NCBI GenBank assembly: GCA_012729355.1
Contig: JAAYDG010000015.1
Location: 1-32,426 of the forward strand
Origin: Clostridiales bacterium
GTDB taxonomy: Bacteria; Bacillota; Clostridia; Peptostreptococcales; Anaerovoracaceae
Direction: 5' to 3'
DNA length: 32,426 nt
Numbering within the stretch: position 1 is the stretch's first letter; every line of letters begins with the position of its first letter. Under the pieces are notes generated by a model. The model did not search any database. It was not told the origin of the DNA and saw only the letters and a program-made list of their open reading frames with translations. The translations under genes were made by a program, and so were the position numbers. Shown here one piece after another: positions 8,718-29,719 of the stretch.

Positions 8718-9713
8718 ATGAATAAAAAACCCACTATCGCCGTCGTGGGAGCCACCGGGCTGGTGGGAACCACTTTCCTGAAGATCCTGGAAGAACGTGC
8801 GTTTCCTTTCGAGAACCTGTATCTGATGGCCAGCGCCAAATCAGCCGGGAAATCCATTCGATTCAGAGGGGTCGAATACGTCGTCGAAGAACTCGGTGAA
8901 GACTCGTTCCGAAAACCCATCGACATTGCTCTCTTTTCGGCAGGTGCCGGTATTTCTCTGAAATACGCCCCGATTGCAGCGGCCTCCGGCTGCATCGTTG
9001 TAGACAACAGCAGCGCTTGGCGAATGGATCCGGACGTCCCGTTGATCGTCCCTGAAGTAAATCCCGAAGCTGTGGAAAAGGCAACGAAGGGGATCATCGC
9101 AAACCCTAACTGTTCTACGATCCAGGCAATGTTACCGATCAAAGCGCTGCACGACGCATATAAAGTCCGACGCATTGTATATGCGACCTACCAGTCGGTA
9201 TCCGGAGCAGGGGTCAAAGGCCTTCGCGATTTGGAGGAGGGATTGAAAGGAAATGACATCTGCAAGGCTTTTCCCCACCCCATCGCAGGCAATTGCATCC
9301 CGCACATCGACGTTTTTCTGGATAACGGGTACACGAAAGAAGAGATGAAAATGGTCAATGAGACACGGAAGATCCTGGGAGACGAATCGATCCAGATTAC
9401 TGCGACTACCGTCCGGGTCCCGGTGCGCGGCTCTCACAGCGAATCGATCAATCTGGAATTCGAACGGCCTTTCGACTTGCAGGATGCAAAAGCAAAGCTC
9501 GCGGCTATGAGTGGGCTTGTTGTCCTCGATGATCCGGCAACCAACACTTATCCGCTGGCTAGGGATGCGGAAGGAACCGACGAAGTCTATGTGGGACGAA
9601 TTCGTAGGGATTTCAGTGTGGAAAGCGGCCTCAACCTCTGGTGCGTAGCCGACAATATTCGGAAGGGCGCAGCAACCAACACGGTGCAAATCGCAGAACT
9701 GCTTATCAAATAG
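8718..9713 (+). CDS. asd: aspartate-semialdehyde dehydrogenase
   Basis: MNKKPTIAVVGATGLVGTTFLKILEERAFP...IIANPNCSTIQAMLPIKALHD; SD AAGGAGG. Confidence 0.97.
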   Translation: MNKKPTIAVVGATGLVGTTFLKILEERAFPFENLYLMASAKSAGKSIRFRGVEYVVEELGEDSFRKPIDIALFSAGAGISLKYAPIAAASGCIVVDNSSAWRMDPDVPLIVPEVNPEAVEKATKGIIANPNCSTIQAMLPIKALHDAYKVRRIVYATYQSVSGAGVKGLRDLEEGLKGNDICKAFPHPIAGNCIPHIDVFLDNGYTKEEMKMVNETRKILGDESIQITATTVRVPVRGSHSESINLEFERPFDLQDAKAKLAAMSGLVVLDDPATNTYPLARDAEGTDEVYVGRIRRDFSVESGLNLWCVADNIRKGAATNTVQIAELLIK

Positions 9714-9792
9714 TGCGAAGTCATGTATACTATTGTCGTCAGCTATTCCACAATCCGAATCACATAAACTTGGAATTTAGAGGAGAAGAAAC

Positions 9793-10824
9793 ATGCAAAG
9801 AGCAGACGCCGGCCTCGGGTTCATCATGCAGTACGAAAACGTCGCTTGGTTTCAGGACGGAAAAGTGCGTATTTTGGACCGTCGCATCTATCCCATCCGC
9901 ACCGAATACGTTACGTGTCAGAAACACGAAGAAGTAGCACAAGCCATCGCCGACATGGTAACCCAGAGCGGAGGCCCCTATACCGCGGCCAGCATGGGGA
10001 TGGTTCTGGCCTGTTACGAATCCGAAGCGATGAAGGAAGCCGATCGACTCGCTTATTTAAAAAAAGCAGCCTATACCCTTTCCCATGCGAGACCGACCAC
10101 CTCCGCAAAAATGGAACGTTTCACCGGCAGCATCCTGAATGCCGCTGCGAAGGCCATGCGCGAAGGCGGCGACGTGGTGGACGCAGCCAGAGAAAAAGCT
10201 GTTCAAGATCTGAACGATCGATACAATCGCTTCGAACCTGTCGGTGAAATCATCGCTTCGTTGATCCCGAAAAACGGAACAATCCTCACACAATGCTGGG
10301 CGGAAACCGATATCGCCATGACTCTGCGTGCCTGCCGCAACCAAGGGAACGAGATCAAAGTCATCTGTGCGGAGACAAGGCCCTATTTTCAGGGGGCCCG
10401 TCTCACTGCCAGTTGCGCCCGCGATATGGGCTTCGACGTGACGGTCATCTGCGACAACATGCCCGCATACACGATGAAAATGAAGAAGATCGATCTGTTC
10501 ACTTCCGCAGCGGATGTGATCAGCTGCGACGGCTATGTCGTGAACAAAATCGGAACGTTCCAGATCGCACTGGCCGCCGATTACTGGGGTGTCCCCTACT
10601 ACGCCACGGGAAACCCCAACGCCGCGCACCCGACGATCGACACCGTCACCATCGAAGAACGGGATCCGGAGCTGGCGCTGCACGCCATGGATGTCAAACT
10701 GACCCTGGAGGGCGTCAAGGGATACTATCCGGCTTTCGACATCACACCGCCGGAACTGATCACCGGAATTGCCACGGTCAAAGGACTCATGAAACCCGAC
10801 GAACTTTCCGGCTATTTTGCGTAA
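9793..10824 (+). CDS. divergent MtnA/eIF2B-alpha-like sugar-phosphate isomerase (S-methyl-5-thioribose-1-phosphate isomerase-like)
   Basis: ICAETRPYFQGARLTASCARDMGFDVTVICDNMPAYTMK, AADVISCDGYVVNKIGTFQIALAADYWGVPYYA, IEERDPELA, YYPAFDITPPELITGIATVKGLM; the canonical RGAPAIG segment is absent. Confidence 0.8.
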   Translation: MQRADAGLGFIMQYENVAWFQDGKVRILDRRIYPIRTEYVTCQKHEEVAQAIADMVTQSGGPYTAASMGMVLACYESEAMKEADRLAYLKKAAYTLSHARPTTSAKMERFTGSILNAAAKAMREGGDVVDAAREKAVQDLNDRYNRFEPVGEIIASLIPKNGTILTQCWAETDIAMTLRACRNQGNEIKVICAETRPYFQGARLTASCARDMGFDVTVICDNMPAYTMKMKKIDLFTSAADVISCDGYVVNKIGTFQIALAADYWGVPYYATGNPNAAHPTIDTVTIEERDPELALHAMDVKLTLEGVKGYYPAFDITPPELITGIATVKGLMKPDELSGYFA

Positions 10825-10839
10825 CAGGAGGAACCGAGC

Positions 10840-12027
10840 ATGTACACAGCTGAATCCATCATCCCTTATGCCGTCGATCGATTGCCGAAATTTTTTTCCA
10901 AGGATGCGAAATTGGTATCCGAAGAGATCGGCGACGGAAACATCAATTATGTGTATCGAATCAAAGATGAAACATCCGGAAAATCTTTGATCGTGAAACA
11001 TGCGGAAAACGAACTTCGCATCTACAAAGCCCGTTTTGTCGGGACGGACAGAAACCGGATCGAATACGAAGTGCTGTCGTTCCAACGTCGCCTTGCACCT
11101 GAATACATACCGGAGCTGTATCTCTACGACGATGAAAATAAAAACATCTTCATGGAAGATATGCAGGGATACGAGAACATGCGCTATGAGCTGTGTGCGC
11201 ATAAAATATTCCAATACGCGGCAGAACACCTGGCAGATTTCTGCGCCAAAGTATTGATCAATACAACGGATACGGTGGTCGGCGCTATGGACAAAAAGGA
11301 ACTGGTCAAACGATACATCAATGTGTATCCCTGCGAAATCACGGAACGGCATGTTCTGACAGAACCGTATCAGGATCTGGAAGAAAACGGTGTCTGTCCG
11401 GCTAACGACGCATTTATGCGGAAGATGATTTACGAAAACGACGCACTCAAAGCCCGGGTCGGGATCCTGAAGGATCGTTTTCAGACCAAGGCCCAGGCGC
11501 TGATTCACGGAGACTTGCACACAGGTTCGATTTTCGTGACTCCCGAGCGAACCTGCATCCTGGACCCTGAATTTGCTTTCTACGGACCCATCGGCTATGA
11601 CACCGGCAATTTTGTCGCCAACATGATCTTTGCCTATGCCAATGCCCGGGTCACCATGGAAGACGGGCCGGAAAAGACAGCGTATATCGATTGGATCCTT
11701 CGTACCATAGAATCTTTTACCGATCGATTCGTTTCGAAGTCTTTGCAGATCCTCAGAAATCAATCCAAAGATTTCATGATGCAATCCGAGGAGTTCTTCG
11801 CACTGTATATCAGAGACATCCTCGAAGATACCGCAGGGTACGCCGGAACCGAATTGATCCGCAGGATCGTGGGAAGTTCTGGCGTCCGGGATATCAAATC
11901 CATCCCGGACGAATCGGGCAAGGCCAGAGCTGAAATGATCTGCCTGAAGGCCGGAATCCACTTCATCATGCACCCGGATCGGTTTACAACCGGCACAGCG
12001 TATACGGAATATCTGCGCTCCCTATGA
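10840..12027 (+). CDS. mtnK: S-methyl-5-thioribose kinase-like protein
   Basis: EIGDGNINYVYRIKDETSGKSLIVKHAE...ALIHGDLHTGSIFVTPERTCILDPEFAFYGPIGYDTGNFVANMI; aminoglycoside-phosphotransferase-like kinase of the MtnK type. Confidence 0.88.
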   Translation: MYTAESIIPYAVDRLPKFFSKDAKLVSEEIGDGNINYVYRIKDETSGKSLIVKHAENELRIYKARFVGTDRNRIEYEVLSFQRRLAPEYIPELYLYDDENKNIFMEDMQGYENMRYELCAHKIFQYAAEHLADFCAKVLINTTDTVVGAMDKKELVKRYINVYPCEITERHVLTEPYQDLEENGVCPANDAFMRKMIYENDALKARVGILKDRFQTKAQALIHGDLHTGSIFVTPERTCILDPEFAFYGPIGYDTGNFVANMIFAYANARVTMEDGPEKTAYIDWILRTIESFTDRFVSKSLQILRNQSKDFMMQSEEFFALYIRDILEDTAGYAGTELIRRIVGSSGVRDIKSIPDESGKARAEMICLKAGIHFIMHPDRFTTGTAYTEYLRSL

Positions 12028-24366: not shown

Positions 24367-24408
24367 GAACAACGCTGCGCATCTGCGCAGCGTTGTTCGG
24401 CTTTTTTA
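24367..24408. terminator. Bidirectional terminator, FrlC-like gene / porB
   Basis: GAACAACGCTGCGC-ATCT-GCGCAGCGTTGTTC-GG-CTTTTTT; 14-bp perfect stem. Confidence 0.9.
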
Positions 24409-25341
24409 GAGACTGCATTTTTTCTGCAGCAATTCCCATCTTTTGTCGACTTCGGCCTGAAGTTTTGCGACCTGGTCTTCTTTTCCGGGCTGCAGCAGGT
24501 GGCGAAACCGCCCCTGCAGCTTCAGGAATTCTTCGATCGGCAGCTTTTTCTTCGGTTCATAGGTAATAGTCCACTTTTCGCCGTTTTCGACCTCGTAAAG
24601 CGGCCAGAAACAGGTGTCTGCGGCTGCTTTACAAATATCCATGATATTTTCGGCTTCGTAGCGCCATCCTCTCGGACAAGGTGCCAGGATATTCAGGAAG
24701 CAGGCACCTTCCGTATAAATCGCTTTTTCGGCTTTCACGATCAAGTCCTTGAAGTTTCCCATCAATGTGGTTTGACCCGCATAGGGGATCTTGTGGGCCG
24801 CCATTACTTCGGTCAGATCCTTCCGGTTTTGTTTTTTCCCGTCAGACACCGTCCCGCTGGGCGTTGTCGTGGTGTCTGCAAACATGGGCGTTGCGGAAGA
24901 CCTCTGGATGCCCGTGTTCATGTAGGCTTCATTGTCGTAGCAGACGTATACCATATCGTGGTTGCGTTCCATCGCCCCCGACAGGGATTGGAAGCCGATG
25001 TCATACGTTCCCCCGTCACCGCCCACTGCGAGGAATTTGAATGTTTCGTCGATCTTGCCCCGCTTCTTCAGCGCATTGTATGCTGCTTCCACACCGCCGG
25101 CTGTAGACGCGGCGTTTTCAAACGCATTGTGGATGTAGCTGTCCGTCCAGGCCGAATACGGATACGTAAAAGTGGATACTTCCATGCATCCGGTGGCGTT
25201 GGCGATGACTGCCTTATCTTCGGGTTTGATTGCTTTCAGCACGTTCCTGAGCGCTACGGTGGCTCCGCAGCCTGCACACATTCTGTGGCCGGGCACCAGG
25301 CGCTCCGGACGGCTCATTACTTCTTTGAAATTATATGCCAT
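24406..25341 (-). CDS. porB: 2-oxoacid:ferredoxin oxidoreductase beta subunit (pyruvate type)
   Basis: RLVPGHRMCAGCGATVALRNVLKAI...VGGDGGTYDIGFQSLSGAMERNHDMVYVCYDNEAYMNTGIQRSSATP (TPP binding). Confidence 0.93.
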   Translation of the reverse strand: MAYNFKEVMSRPERLVPGHRMCAGCGATVALRNVLKAIKPEDKAVIANATGCMEVSTFTYPYSAWTDSYIHNAFENAASTAGGVEAAYNALKKRGKIDETFKFLAVGGDGGTYDIGFQSLSGAMERNHDMVYVCYDNEAYMNTGIQRSSATPMFADTTTTPSGTVSDGKKQNRKDLTEVMAAHKIPYAGQTTLMGNFKDLIVKAEKAIYTEGACFLNILAPCPRGWRYEAENIMDICKAAADTCFWPLYEVENGEKWTITYEPKKKLPIEEFLKLQGRFRHLLQPGKEDQVAKLQAEVDKRWELLQKKCSL

Positions 25342-25353
25342 GGTCCGCACCCC

Positions 25354-26532
25354 CTACTCTCTGACATTTACATAACGGTACGGAAGCTCTTTGCACTCGA
25401 AGTTTCCTGCTTCGAGATCCGCATAGATCATTTCCATATCTTCCACTGTGATATCTCTTCCGCCCAATCCGTACACCATGGAGAGGATCTCGGGGCACTG
25501 TTTCGCGTCGAAAAGCGCCGCTTTCAGCTCGGCTGCCATGGGACCGCTGTTGCCGCTGAAACTTTCGGCACGGTCCATTGCGGCGATCGCTTTTGCATTT
25601 TTCAGGGCAGCTGCCAACTCTGCCGCAGGGAACGGACGGAATACTCTGATCTTCAGTACACCGACTTTCTTCCCTTTTGCTCTGAGTTTGTCGCAGGCAT
25701 CCTTGGCCGCGCCGGAAGCTGATCCCATGATTACGATGACATAGTCTGCGTCTTTCGTGTGATATTCTTCGAAAAAGCTATAACCGCGTCCGCTGAGGGT
25801 TTCATATTCTCTCGCGATATCCAGGATGACTTTCCTGGAGGCGACCATACCTTCCGCCATAGATCTTCTGGCTTCCATATAATAATTCGTTACGGCATAA
25901 GGCCCCACCGCCATGGGGTTTTCTGCGTTGAGAAGGTAATTTTCGGGGGTGTATTCGCCCACGAATTTTTTGACTTCTTCATCTTCGAGCAAAAGTATGT
26001 TCTGAACGGCATGACTGGTGATAAATCCGTCCTGGCACACCATGACCGGAAGCAAGACATCCGGGTGTTCCGCGATGCGGAAGGCCATGACCATATTGTC
26101 GTAGGCTTCCTGATTGTCTTCCGAATAGAGCTGGATCCACCCGCAATCTCTGGCGCCCATTCCATCGGAGTGGTCTGCGTTGATATTGATGGGCCCGGAC
26201 AATGCTCGATTCACCAAAGCCAACACCACCGGAACCCTGTCGGAAGATGCGATGTGCAGTTCTTCCCACATGAGAGCCAATCCGGCAGAAGAGGTCGCTG
26301 TGAGCGCTCTGGCTCCTGCCGCCGATGCGCCGATGGTGGCGCTCATGGCGCTGTGTTCGCTTTCCACGGCAACAAACTCAGTGTCAATCAGTCCGTCAGC
26401 CACATAAGAAGATACGTATTGGGGTATCTCCGTAGAAGGTGTGATCGGAAATGCGGGCATGACATCCGGGTTGATCTGACGAATGGCAGTGGAGACTGCC
26501 TCGTTGCCGGATAATCTTTCACGTATGGCCAT
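25354..26532 (-). CDS. porA: 2-oxoacid:ferredoxin oxidoreductase alpha subunit
   Basis: MAIRERLSGNEAVSTAIRQINPDVMPAFPITPSTEIPQYVSSYV...VESEHSAMSATIGASAAGARALTATSSAGLALM. Confidence 0.93.
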   Translation of the reverse strand: MAIRERLSGNEAVSTAIRQINPDVMPAFPITPSTEIPQYVSSYVADGLIDTEFVAVESEHSAMSATIGASAAGARALTATSSAGLALMWEELHIASSDRVPVVLALVNRALSGPININADHSDGMGARDCGWIQLYSEDNQEAYDNMVMAFRIAEHPDVLLPVMVCQDGFITSHAVQNILLLEDEEVKKFVGEYTPENYLLNAENPMAVGPYAVTNYYMEARRSMAEGMVASRKVILDIAREYETLSGRGYSFFEEYHTKDADYVIVIMGSASGAAKDACDKLRAKGKKVGVLKIRVFRPFPAAELAAALKNAKAIAAMDRAESFSGNSGPMAAELKAALFDAKQCPEILSMVYGLGGRDITVEDMEMIYADLEAGNFECKELPYRYVNVRE

Positions 26533-26838
26533 TTACTTTACCCCCTTTTTCATTTCAATTGCACCAAAGGGGCAAACCTTGGCGCAGATCCCACAGCCTT
26601 TGCAGTGGTCATAATCAAAATCGGTACGTTTTCCGTCCACGACGGGAATGGAACTGTCGGGGCATACAGGCACGCACAGCAAGCATTGCTTGCATTGATC
26701 GACCAGGAAGATCGGTCTGTCCACACGCCATTCACCGGTATTAAACTGTTCGCTGCCGCCACTGTGAACAATACTGGCACCTATGGTCATATCCTGCCAT
26801 TTCACATCCAGTCCTTGTTTGCTGATATCTGTCTTCAT
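26533..26838 (-). CDS. porD: 2-oxoacid:ferredoxin oxidoreductase delta subunit (2x[4Fe-4S] ferredoxin)
   Basis: VDQCKQCLLCVPVCPDSSIPV...YDHCKGCGICAKVCPFGAIEM; two CxxCxxCxxxCP clusters. Confidence 0.94.
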   Translation of the reverse strand: MKTDISKQGLDVKWQDMTIGASIVHSGGSEQFNTGEWRVDRPIFLVDQCKQCLLCVPVCPDSSIPVVDGKRTDFDYDHCKGCGICAKVCPFGAIEMKKGVK

Positions 26839-27413
26839 TATTCCTTCACCTCCTTGAGAGCGATCTTCAACGCCTTCATGTTCCCTTCGATCACTTGGGG
26901 TTTTGAGGCGAACTTGTGCTCATAGGACATTTGCATTTCTTCCAAAAACTTCTCTTCGGGCATGATTCCGCTTACCTTGATCACGGCAGCCAGCATGGGA
27001 GAATTCGGGAAATACATTCCCAGAGCTTCCATGGAAACCTTGCGCGCGTCGATGGTACAAACTCTGCCCTGATATCCCTTCAACAGCGGTATGATTTCTT
27101 CCTTATCCTTCGCTGTATTAATGATTACCGCACCTTCTTCTGAAAGTCCGGCAGTGACATCGATGTCCTCCAGCAGTGTTTCGTCTACGACGACGACGTA
27201 ATCCGGCGCGTAGATGTTTGAGTGGACTCGAATGGGCTTGTCGCTGACCCGATTGTATGCCGTTATCGGCGCACCCATACGTTCCGGACCGTACTCGGGA
27301 AACCCCTGTACTTCCGCACCCGTGCTGAATGCAACGTCGGCTAACAGAAGAGCGGCTGTCTTGGCGCCTTGGCCGCCGCGACCGTGCCATCTGATTTCGG
27401 TTAAACCTTTCAT
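26838..27413 (-). CDS. porG: 2-oxoacid:ferredoxin oxidoreductase gamma subunit
   Basis: MKGLTEIRWHGRGGQGAKTAALLLADVAFSTGAEVQGFPEYGPERMGAPITAYNRVSDKPIR. Confidence 0.95.
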   Translation of the reverse strand: MKGLTEIRWHGRGGQGAKTAALLLADVAFSTGAEVQGFPEYGPERMGAPITAYNRVSDKPIRVHSNIYAPDYVVVVDETLLEDIDVTAGLSEEGAVIINTAKDKEEIIPLLKGYQGRVCTIDARKVSMEALGMYFPNSPMLAAVIKVSGIMPEEKFLEEMQMSYEHKFASKPQVIEGNMKALKIALKEVKE

Positions 27414-28522: not shown

Positions 28523-29719
28523 TTATTTGGTCGCGATATCCAGAGCCTGCAGCACATCCCAGATAATATCGTCGGGATCTTCCAGACCTACGGAAAGACG
28601 GACCAGGCACTTGGAAAAGCCGGCGGCTTCCATTTCTGCGTCACTGTATGTGGAATGGGTCATGGAGCCGGGATGCTGGATCAAGGTTTCGGCATCGCCC
28701 AGGCTTACAGCCAGTGTGCAAAGCTGAACATTGTTCATCATTTTCTCGGCGATTTCCGGTGTTTCTGTATCAAATGCGATCATACCGCCGAAGTTCTTCA
28801 GCTGCTTCTTAATGACGGCTGCATCCACATGGCTTGCCAAACCGGGATAATAAATGTTTTTGATTCTGGAGTCTTTTTCCAGAGCCTGTGCGATCTTCAG
28901 CGCGTTCTCGCAATGCTTCTGCATCCGGATCGTAAGTGTTTTGAGTCCTCTGTTGACCAGGAAAGCTTCCTGGGGGCCCAACACGGAACCGGTCAGGTCC
29001 TTAAGACCTACCCCTTTGATTGTAGCCATATATTTGTTTGAAGATGCTGCGAATCCTGCGATCACGTCGCCATGGCCATTCAGGTATTTCGTAGCGCTGT
29101 GTACGACGATATCCGCGCCAAGATTCAGCGGTTTGCATATCAATCCGGTGGCAAATGTGTTGTCTACCACAACGATACAATCCTTGTTGGCATCGTGAGC
29201 CAATTTTGCAGCTGCTTCGATATCGACTACCTTCATGGTCGGATTAGCGATGGTTTCAAAATAGATCATATCTGTCTTTTTTTCCAGAGCTTTCTTGACT
29301 GCGGCAAGATCTCTGAAATCAACAAATTCCACGTCGATCCCGAACTGGGAAAGCTTGTGGCTGAAGAGCGCGAACGTACAGCCGTAGAGAGCTTTGTCGG
29401 CAACCATTCTGTCGCCGGCCTTGAGGAAAGTGGTCGTCGAGGAGGAAATCGCGCCCATGCCGGAAGAAAAAGCACAAGCGGCTTCTGCATCTTCCAGATA
29501 AGCGACTTTTTCTTCTACTTGTGTCGTGGTCGGCGAGCCGAGTCTGCTGTAGATATAGCCGCCTTCTTTGCCTGCAAAACGAGCTGCGCCTTGTGCGGTG
29601 TTTTCGAATTCGAATGTGGAAGTCTGGAAAATAGGCATCTGTAAAGAGCCGTAGGGATTCATCCCGTGCTTTTCGCCGTGGATAATTTTGGTATCCGGTG
29701 CAAATTCTCTCTTACTCAT
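28523..29719 (-). CDS. megL: methionine gamma-lyase (Cys/Met metabolism PLP enzyme)
   Basis: PIFQTSTFEFENTAQGAARFAGKEGGYIYSRLGSPTTTQVEEK, ADKALYGCTFALFSHKLSQFGIDV (MGL-type YGCT), VVHSATKYLNGHGDVIAGF (PLP lysine). Confidence 0.9.
   Translation of the reverse strand: MSKREFAPDTKIIHGEKHGMNPYGSLQMPIFQTSTFEFENTAQGAARFAGKEGGYIYSRLGSPTTTQVEEKVAYLEDAEAACAFSSGMGAISSSTTTFLKAGDRMVADKALYGCTFALFSHKLSQFGIDVEFVDFRDLAAVKKALEKKTDMIYFETIANPTMKVVDIEAAAKLAHDANKDCIVVVDNTFATGLICKPLNLGADIVVHSATKYLNGHGDVIAGFAASSNKYMATIKGVGLKDLTGSVLGPQEAFLVNRGLKTLTIRMQKHCENALKIAQALEKDSRIKNIYYPGLASHVDAAVIKKQLKNFGGMIAFDTETPEIAEKMMNNVQLCTLAVSLGDAETLIQHPGSMTHSTYSDAEMEAAGFSKCLVRLSVGLEDPDDIIWDVLQALDIATK

Follow-up and report, generated by a model that had tools for sequence, protein, structure and literature searches.

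The pair of genes studied here, encoding an MtnA-like isomerase and an MtnK-type kinase, raises the question of which sugar phosphate the two enzymes handle and to which pathway they belong. The genes lie in a genome of a Clostridiales bacterium (family Anaerovoracaceae, 97.5% complete), of which one stretch of 32,426 nucleotides, termed the window in the following, was analysed. A first-pass annotation of this DNA had proposed a distinct isomerase subfamily paired with MtnK, belonging either to a partial methionine salvage module or to a module of the 5-deoxyribose/DHAP-shunt type.

The isomerase and its active site

Both reading frames were recovered as annotated, 15 bp apart on the same strand with the isomerase gene upstream (Table 1). 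Of the 149 genomes examined from the bacterial family, 14 had the isomerase frame at 51-90% identity, and it is therefore not a chance ORF. Its product scored 142 bits against Pfam IF-2B and exceeded the cut-off of the NCBIfam model PRK05720 (NF004326), which describes a broad 's-methyl-5-thioribose-1-phosphate isomerase' subfamily (317.5 vs 271 bits). It fell below the cut-offs of the equivalog models TIGR00512 for MtnA (183.3 vs 279 bits) and TIGR00511 for ribose-1,5-bisphosphate isomerase (133.2 vs 314.1 bits). All superfamily landmarks quoted in the annotation were found in the translation, and the structure prediction it had suggested yielded an AlphaFold model (pLDDT 88) with best matches to the MtnA folds 6a34, 1t9k and 2yvk and, less closely, to ribose-1,5-bisphosphate isomerase. 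Judged by these sequence-based criteria, the product is a genuine sugar-1-phosphate isomerase of the MtnA/eIF2B-alpha fold. An antisense ORF of 638 aa (window positions 10057-11973, reverse strand) covers most of the isomerase and kinase genes and looks like an incidental by-product of codon usage. A promoter and terminator scan performed no better than on shuffled sequence.

Table 1. Positions of the gene pair, its neighbour and selected isomerase residues in the window
Feature	Position	Strand	Basis
asd, aspartate-semialdehyde dehydrogenase, neighbour	8718..9713	+	profile; locus comparison
Likely ribosome-binding site GAGGAGAA of the isomerase gene	9780..9787	+	sequence read just 5' of ATG
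Divergent MtnA-like sugar-1-phosphate isomerase, 343 aa, kinase-linked clade of the subfamily	9793..10824	+	profiles, tree, AlphaFold model
TQSGGP, residues 57-62, in place of canonical MtnA VRGAPA	9961..9978	+	Q, S, G and P each 1.0 of 128 sequences
Arg100, equivalent to Arg94 of B. subtilis MtnA, retained	10090..10092	+	alignment
Cys168-Glu171 (CWAE), catalytic-cysteine position retained	10294..10305	+	alignment
Asp241, equivalent to catalytic Asp240 of B. subtilis MtnA, retained	10513..10515	+	1.0 of 128 sequences
Asn251-Lys252 (NKIGT), equivalent to Asn250/Lys251, retained	10543..10548	+	alignment
MtnK-type 5-methylthioribose/5-deoxyribose kinase, 395 aa, clade accompanying the divergent isomerase	10840..12027	+	profile, PDB match, tree

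Phylogenetic analysis separated the window protein and its relatives from canonical MtnA with branch supports of 100/92 and 97/96. The canonical side comprised MtnA of B. subtilis, T. maritima and K. pneumoniae as well as the E. coli DHAP-shunt MtnA. By sequence, the window isomerase is thus a member of a well-separated subfamily outside canonical MtnA, as had been suspected. Subfamily members were widely distributed. A contig scan found 529 relatives, and the 80 that were kept mostly belonged to Clostridia or other Bacillota and included some spirochaetes; further members occurred in plasmid-collection records of Fusobacterium, Enterococcus and Lactobacillus. A profile for close relatives, run over 393 genomes of Clostridia, gave 17 genomes with at least 475 bits, the next score being 248. 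A class search around genome G534 returned nine matches in 296 genomes, with no identifiable Bacillus among them. The subfamily side of the tree also took in two proteobacterial outliers. An isomerase outlier on a plasmid of Polaromonas sp. P1-6 (CP087967.1, locus L148, 2023-4992), shares 43% identity with the window protein and is annotated as two hypothetical proteins; a methylthioinosine phosphorylase gene is divergently oriented to it and ABC transporter genes follow.

We compared the active-site residues of 128 subfamily sequences with those of 43 canonical MtnA sequences, in which the RGAPAIG and TxCNAG motifs were near-invariant. With canonical MtnA (2yrf/2yvk, 1t9k) the subfamily shares the fold and the equivalents of Cys160, Asp240, Arg94, Gln199, Asn250 and Lys251 (B. 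subtilis numbering), the cysteine (Cys168 in the window protein) being present at 0.99 of the subfamily sequences. Unlike canonical MtnA, to which the window protein is 26-31% identical, all subfamily members compared carry Gln58 in place of Arg51, and the RGAPAIG segment, whose replacement the annotation had already noticed, reads TQSxGP in every sequence. The CNAG motif has become C[FW]xE, and the 7 residues after it are deleted. The RGAPAIG loop presumably forms part of the MtnA phosphate site. Fold and Cys/Asp pair are also shared with archaeal ribose-1,5-bisphosphate isomerase (3a11, 5yfj; about 28% identity), and the PDB contains C135S and D204N mutants of the archaeal enzyme that affect these catalytic residues of the superfamily; the window enzyme differs from it by its score under the TIGR00511 cut-off and by the lack of any bisphosphate context.

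The kinase and the gene neighbourhoods of relatives

The kinase exceeded the cut-off of the MTR kinase equivalog model TIGR01767 (353.2 vs 275 bits), had its best PDB match in B. subtilis MtnK (E 6e-60) and retained the catalytic HGDLHTGS and RR residues (Asp225, Arg341-Arg342), in agreement with its earlier description as MtnK-like. Kinases adjoining subfamily isomerases formed a clade with 100/100 support apart from those adjoining canonical MtnA. The sole other member of this clade was a basal kinase from genome G586, which has an isomerase with a canonical-level score. These sequence trees demonstrate that kinase and isomerase diverged together. Clostridium ganghwense encodes both a canonical mtnA-mtnK pair and a divergent isomerase-kinase-aldolase cluster in one genome, the same paralogy pattern as described for the drd and mtn genes of Bacillus (PMC6079011).

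The neighbourhoods of relatives supplied genes that are missing next to the window pair, namely a class II aldolase, a regulator and importers, or a deaminase and a nucleoside phosphorylase. Directly adjoining the isomerase on the same strand, a class II aldolase was encoded in 32 of 91 subfamily loci and MtnK in 20 of 91. Clusters of this kind include an annotated mtnK-isomerase-aldolase trio in Lactobacillus intestinalis and, in Clostridium, the order DeoR regulator, iron alcohol dehydrogenase, aldolase, isomerase, kinase and NhaC-like transporter. The recurrent combination of kinase, isomerase and class II aldolase fits the 5-deoxyribose/DHAP-shunt type that the first-pass annotation had considered. 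One aldolase beside a subfamily isomerase showed 59% identity to the biochemically characterised DrdA, for which activity on 5-deoxyribulose-1-phosphate has been published (PMC6079011).

The drdK-drdI-drdA system and the DHAP shunt (B. thuringiensis, PMC6079011; E. coli, PMC10986504) resemble the present system in that kinase and isomerase are paralogous to methionine-salvage enzymes and that DrdA-like class II aldolases (up to 59% identity) stand beside subfamily isomerases in relatives, the sequence comparison covering DrdA. They differ from it in that the window pair has no linked aldolase and that its isomerase is remodelled in the RGAPAIG and CNAG segments. The E. coli shunt isomerase belongs to the canonical group; it has the canonical motifs and, at 116 bits, lies far from the subfamily, so that shunt function neither requires nor explains the remodelled site. 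This finding speaks against a shunt reading of the window pair.

Shunt genes were also seen in other E. coli records. Plasmid pBone7_3 (CP054241.1, 3239-4376) carries the DHAP-shunt kinase and aldolase genes together with an unannotated mtnA that matches in two pieces and also occurs in 1,109 of 5,426 complete E. coli genomes. At 99.7% identity, the DHAP-shunt mtnA is also present in NZ_CP022686.1 (3375797-3376938), a record that bears the name E. coli Nissle 1917, contrary to the listing of Nissle among strains without the shunt (PMC10986504).

Genome inventory and methionine salvage

The window's genome encodes exactly two IF-2B-family proteins, both of the subfamily. The second isomerase gene lies on another contig (C78) behind genes for an amidohydrolase of the MTA/5'-deoxyadenosine deaminase type and a phosphorylase, which is of the inosine/guanosine type by NCBIfam (298.8 vs a cut-off of 293.35), so that a deaminase step before the phosphorylase fits. 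Both types of copy co-occurred in all five family genomes with a kinase-type copy. The two types also differed in context across relatives: MtnK was found in 26 of 52 loci of the window's isomerase clade, whereas the clade of the second copy had MtnK in 0 of 28 loci, a deaminase in 14 and a purine nucleoside phosphorylase in 8, all loci being counted without correction for relatedness. Two genomes (G049 and G119) encoded a complete phosphorylase-deaminase-isomerase-aldolase operon. A similar layout is known from Methanocaldococcus jannaschii, where 5'-deoxyadenosine deaminase, MTI phosphorylase and the MtnA-like isomerase MJ0454 act in sequence (PMC6302742); the likeness to the second copy and to relatives' operons is one of layout, and the relatives here differ in being bacterial and in having an added class II aldolase. 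In the literature searched we found no description of the remodelled active site or of this two-module arrangement, while the type of pathway is already published.

The annotation had listed mtnD, mtnN and a class II aldolase as missing from the window and had left the downstream step open. The first two absences extended to the whole genome: acireductone dioxygenase (ARD/mtnD, PF03079) had 0 matches, and no MTA/SAH nucleosidase (mtnN) was present, the sole PNP_UDP_1-family gene being a purine nucleoside phosphorylase. The third held for the window and for genes adjoining the pair, as neither an aldolase nor a transporter adjoins it or the pairs of its closest relatives; on other contigs, however, the genome encodes three class II aldolases, which are candidates for the downstream step. 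Among them, the C153 aldolase was nearest to DrdA (48% identity, compared with 53% to S. pneumoniae FucA), and in the aldolase tree those on C72 and C119 were placed beside the isomerase-linked clade; no one aldolase of the genome was singled out.

These data bear on the methionine-salvage alternative, according to which a canonical MTR-1-P isomerase and an MTR kinase would start the ordinary route with the remaining genes elsewhere in the genome. The kinase score over the MTR kinase model and the isomerase score over the broad PRK05720 model are in line with it. The isomerase is under TIGR00512 and outside the canonical clade, however, and besides lacking ARD the genome has only class II aldolases below the MtnB cut-off (59-72 vs 137 bits). 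Methionine salvage via ARD requires oxygen, whereas most of the close relatives are MAGs that were recovered from the gut, the rumen or faeces. Canonical salvage is largely refuted by the absence of ARD, the TIGR00512 score and the tree position, and we consider it very improbable. An anaerobic variant, in which the shunt would turn MTR into methylthioacetaldehyde and Cys/Met PLP enzymes would help to make a methylthiol product and finally methionine from it, appears doubtful to us. A gene for such an enzyme is present in the window (28523-29719, reverse strand), a related one stands beside the C153 aldolase (L008, 1-761), and Rhodospirillum rubrum uses the shunt for sulphur salvage (PMC10986504), but PLP enzymes are common and these are unlinked to the pair.

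Two further gene groups of the window were noted. The asd gene directly upstream of the pair, as pointed out in the annotation, adjoins it in this genus only, and the pair of the sister genus has no asd next to it; a functional link was therefore rejected, and asd is probably outside the module. A split 2-oxoacid:ferredoxin oxidoreductase is encoded by three genes at 24406-27413 (reverse strand).

Substrate and proposed pathway

We slightly favour a reading in which the pair is the kinase-entry half of a DHAP shunt for 5-deoxyribose disposal and scavenges free 5-deoxyribose and/or methylthioribose. MtnK would phosphorylate a free 5-deoxypentose at C1, most likely 5-deoxyribose and/or 5-methylthioribose. 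This sugar would be imported or made by an unrecognised enzyme, as no recognised nucleosidase was found in the cell: none scored over cut-off in the five family genomes with a kinase-type copy, and a nucleoside hydrolase as its source was ruled out because this enzyme is absent in the window's genus, occurring among kinase-carrying genomes only in the sister genus (G046/G117). The isomerase would then convert the aldose-1-phosphate to the ketose-1-phosphate with Cys168/Asp241 chemistry, and one of the three unlinked aldolases would cleave this, releasing DHAP together with an aldehyde, either acetaldehyde or methylthioacetaldehyde. The second isomerase copy may serve the cell's own 5'-deoxynucleosides. 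The kinase and isomerase steps are derived from family membership and the aldolase step from clustering in relatives. Fold, catalytic residues, gene pairing, the recurrent aldolase clusters of relatives and the genome inventory were read directly from the sequences; substrate, uptake, pathway flux, choice of aldolase and division of labour between the isomerase copies are what we infer from them, with 5-deoxyribose-1-P, MTR-1-P and ribose-1-P as candidate substrates of the isomerase.

Some clusters of the window's own clade point to ribose-1-P and thus argue against a 5-deoxy substrate. They combine aldolase and isomerase with a cytidine deaminase (over cut-off), uridine-phosphorylase-family proteins, inosine/guanosine phosphorylase, ribonucleoside-hydrolase-like genes and BMP-type nucleoside importers. 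Pyrimidine nucleosides would yield ribose-1-P and not 5-deoxyribose-1-P. In this alternative, which as an account of the window pair seems rather unlikely to us, the subfamily isomerases would convert ribose-1-P, nucleoside-derived or made by a kinase (in the window, MtnK acting on ribose), to ribulose-1-P, and a class II aldolase would form DHAP and glycolaldehyde, bypassing phosphopentomutase. It would agree with the altered residues Q58, S59 and E171, all of which are polar, and with the lack of a detectable phosphopentomutase (DeoB) in the window's genome. The congeners G037 and G112 carry one, though, so a gap in the assembly may account for its absence; phosphopentomutase occurs in about half of the subfamily genomes. 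In haloarchaea, the non-carboxylating pentose bisphosphate pathway (PMC9700705) likewise arrives at ribulose-1-P and also uses an MtnA-superfamily isomerase and a FucA-like aldolase to turn nucleosides into DHAP and an aldehyde, but it proceeds over bisphosphates via kinase and phosphatase, whereas here the isomerase would act directly on the monophosphate.

Several findings speak against ribose. The uridine-phosphorylase-like proteins of the clusters are under the TIGR01718 cut-off (158-257 vs 280), as are the hydrolase-like proteins under their curated cut-offs; the window's genome has neither a uridine phosphorylase nor a nucleoside hydrolase; and MtnK is well above the MTR kinase cut-off. 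The acylating aldehyde dehydrogenase encoded in other clusters is most similar to enzymes for acetaldehyde and sulfoacetaldehyde, in keeping with the formation of acetaldehyde from 5-deoxyribose. We see only a modest chance that the subfamily includes, or perhaps mainly consists of, ribose-1-phosphate isomerases that lead nucleosides (or ribose via an MtnK-like kinase) through ribulose-1-phosphate to DHAP and glycolaldehyde independently of phosphopentomutase. A pentose-1-phosphate isomerase with broad substrate range would reconcile the 5-deoxy and the ribose evidence. No description of such a phosphopentomutase-independent nucleoside route was found in the literature searched, nor of a bacterial ribose-1-P isomerase of this kind in the open-access literature searched, the coverage of which was incomplete.

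A bacterial microcompartment beside the ribose-importer-type clusters was considered and rejected: acylating aldehyde dehydrogenase and a thiolase-like plus Zn-ribbon protein were encoded, and no shell proteins. In five loci (L048, 8789-12325; L050; L123; L131; L135) the subfamily isomerase gene is flanked by a small lipoprotein-like gene on one side and two genes for AMP-binding ligases on the other, without kinase, phosphorylase or aldolase. A plasmid of Pusillibacter faecalis (pMM59_01, locus L149, 1248-9029) encodes a canonical-type MtnA with class II aldolase, DeoR regulator, purine nucleoside phosphorylase and BMP nucleoside importer, which indicates that nucleoside-linked isomerase-aldolase clusters arose outside the subfamily too.

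The window pair is thus a distinct enzyme variant, probably within a known kind of pathway. The database name MtnA for subfamily proteins implies methionine salvage in organisms without the rest of this route. Whether the substrate is 5-deoxyribose, methylthioribose or ribose is open to direct test with two small enzymes, and the ribose reading, if true, would add a new exit from nucleosides to glycolysis. The invariant remodelled site provides, with TQSxGP and TQC[FW]xET, a sequence signature by which this widespread branch of anaerobic 5-deoxysugar or nucleoside metabolism can be recognised.
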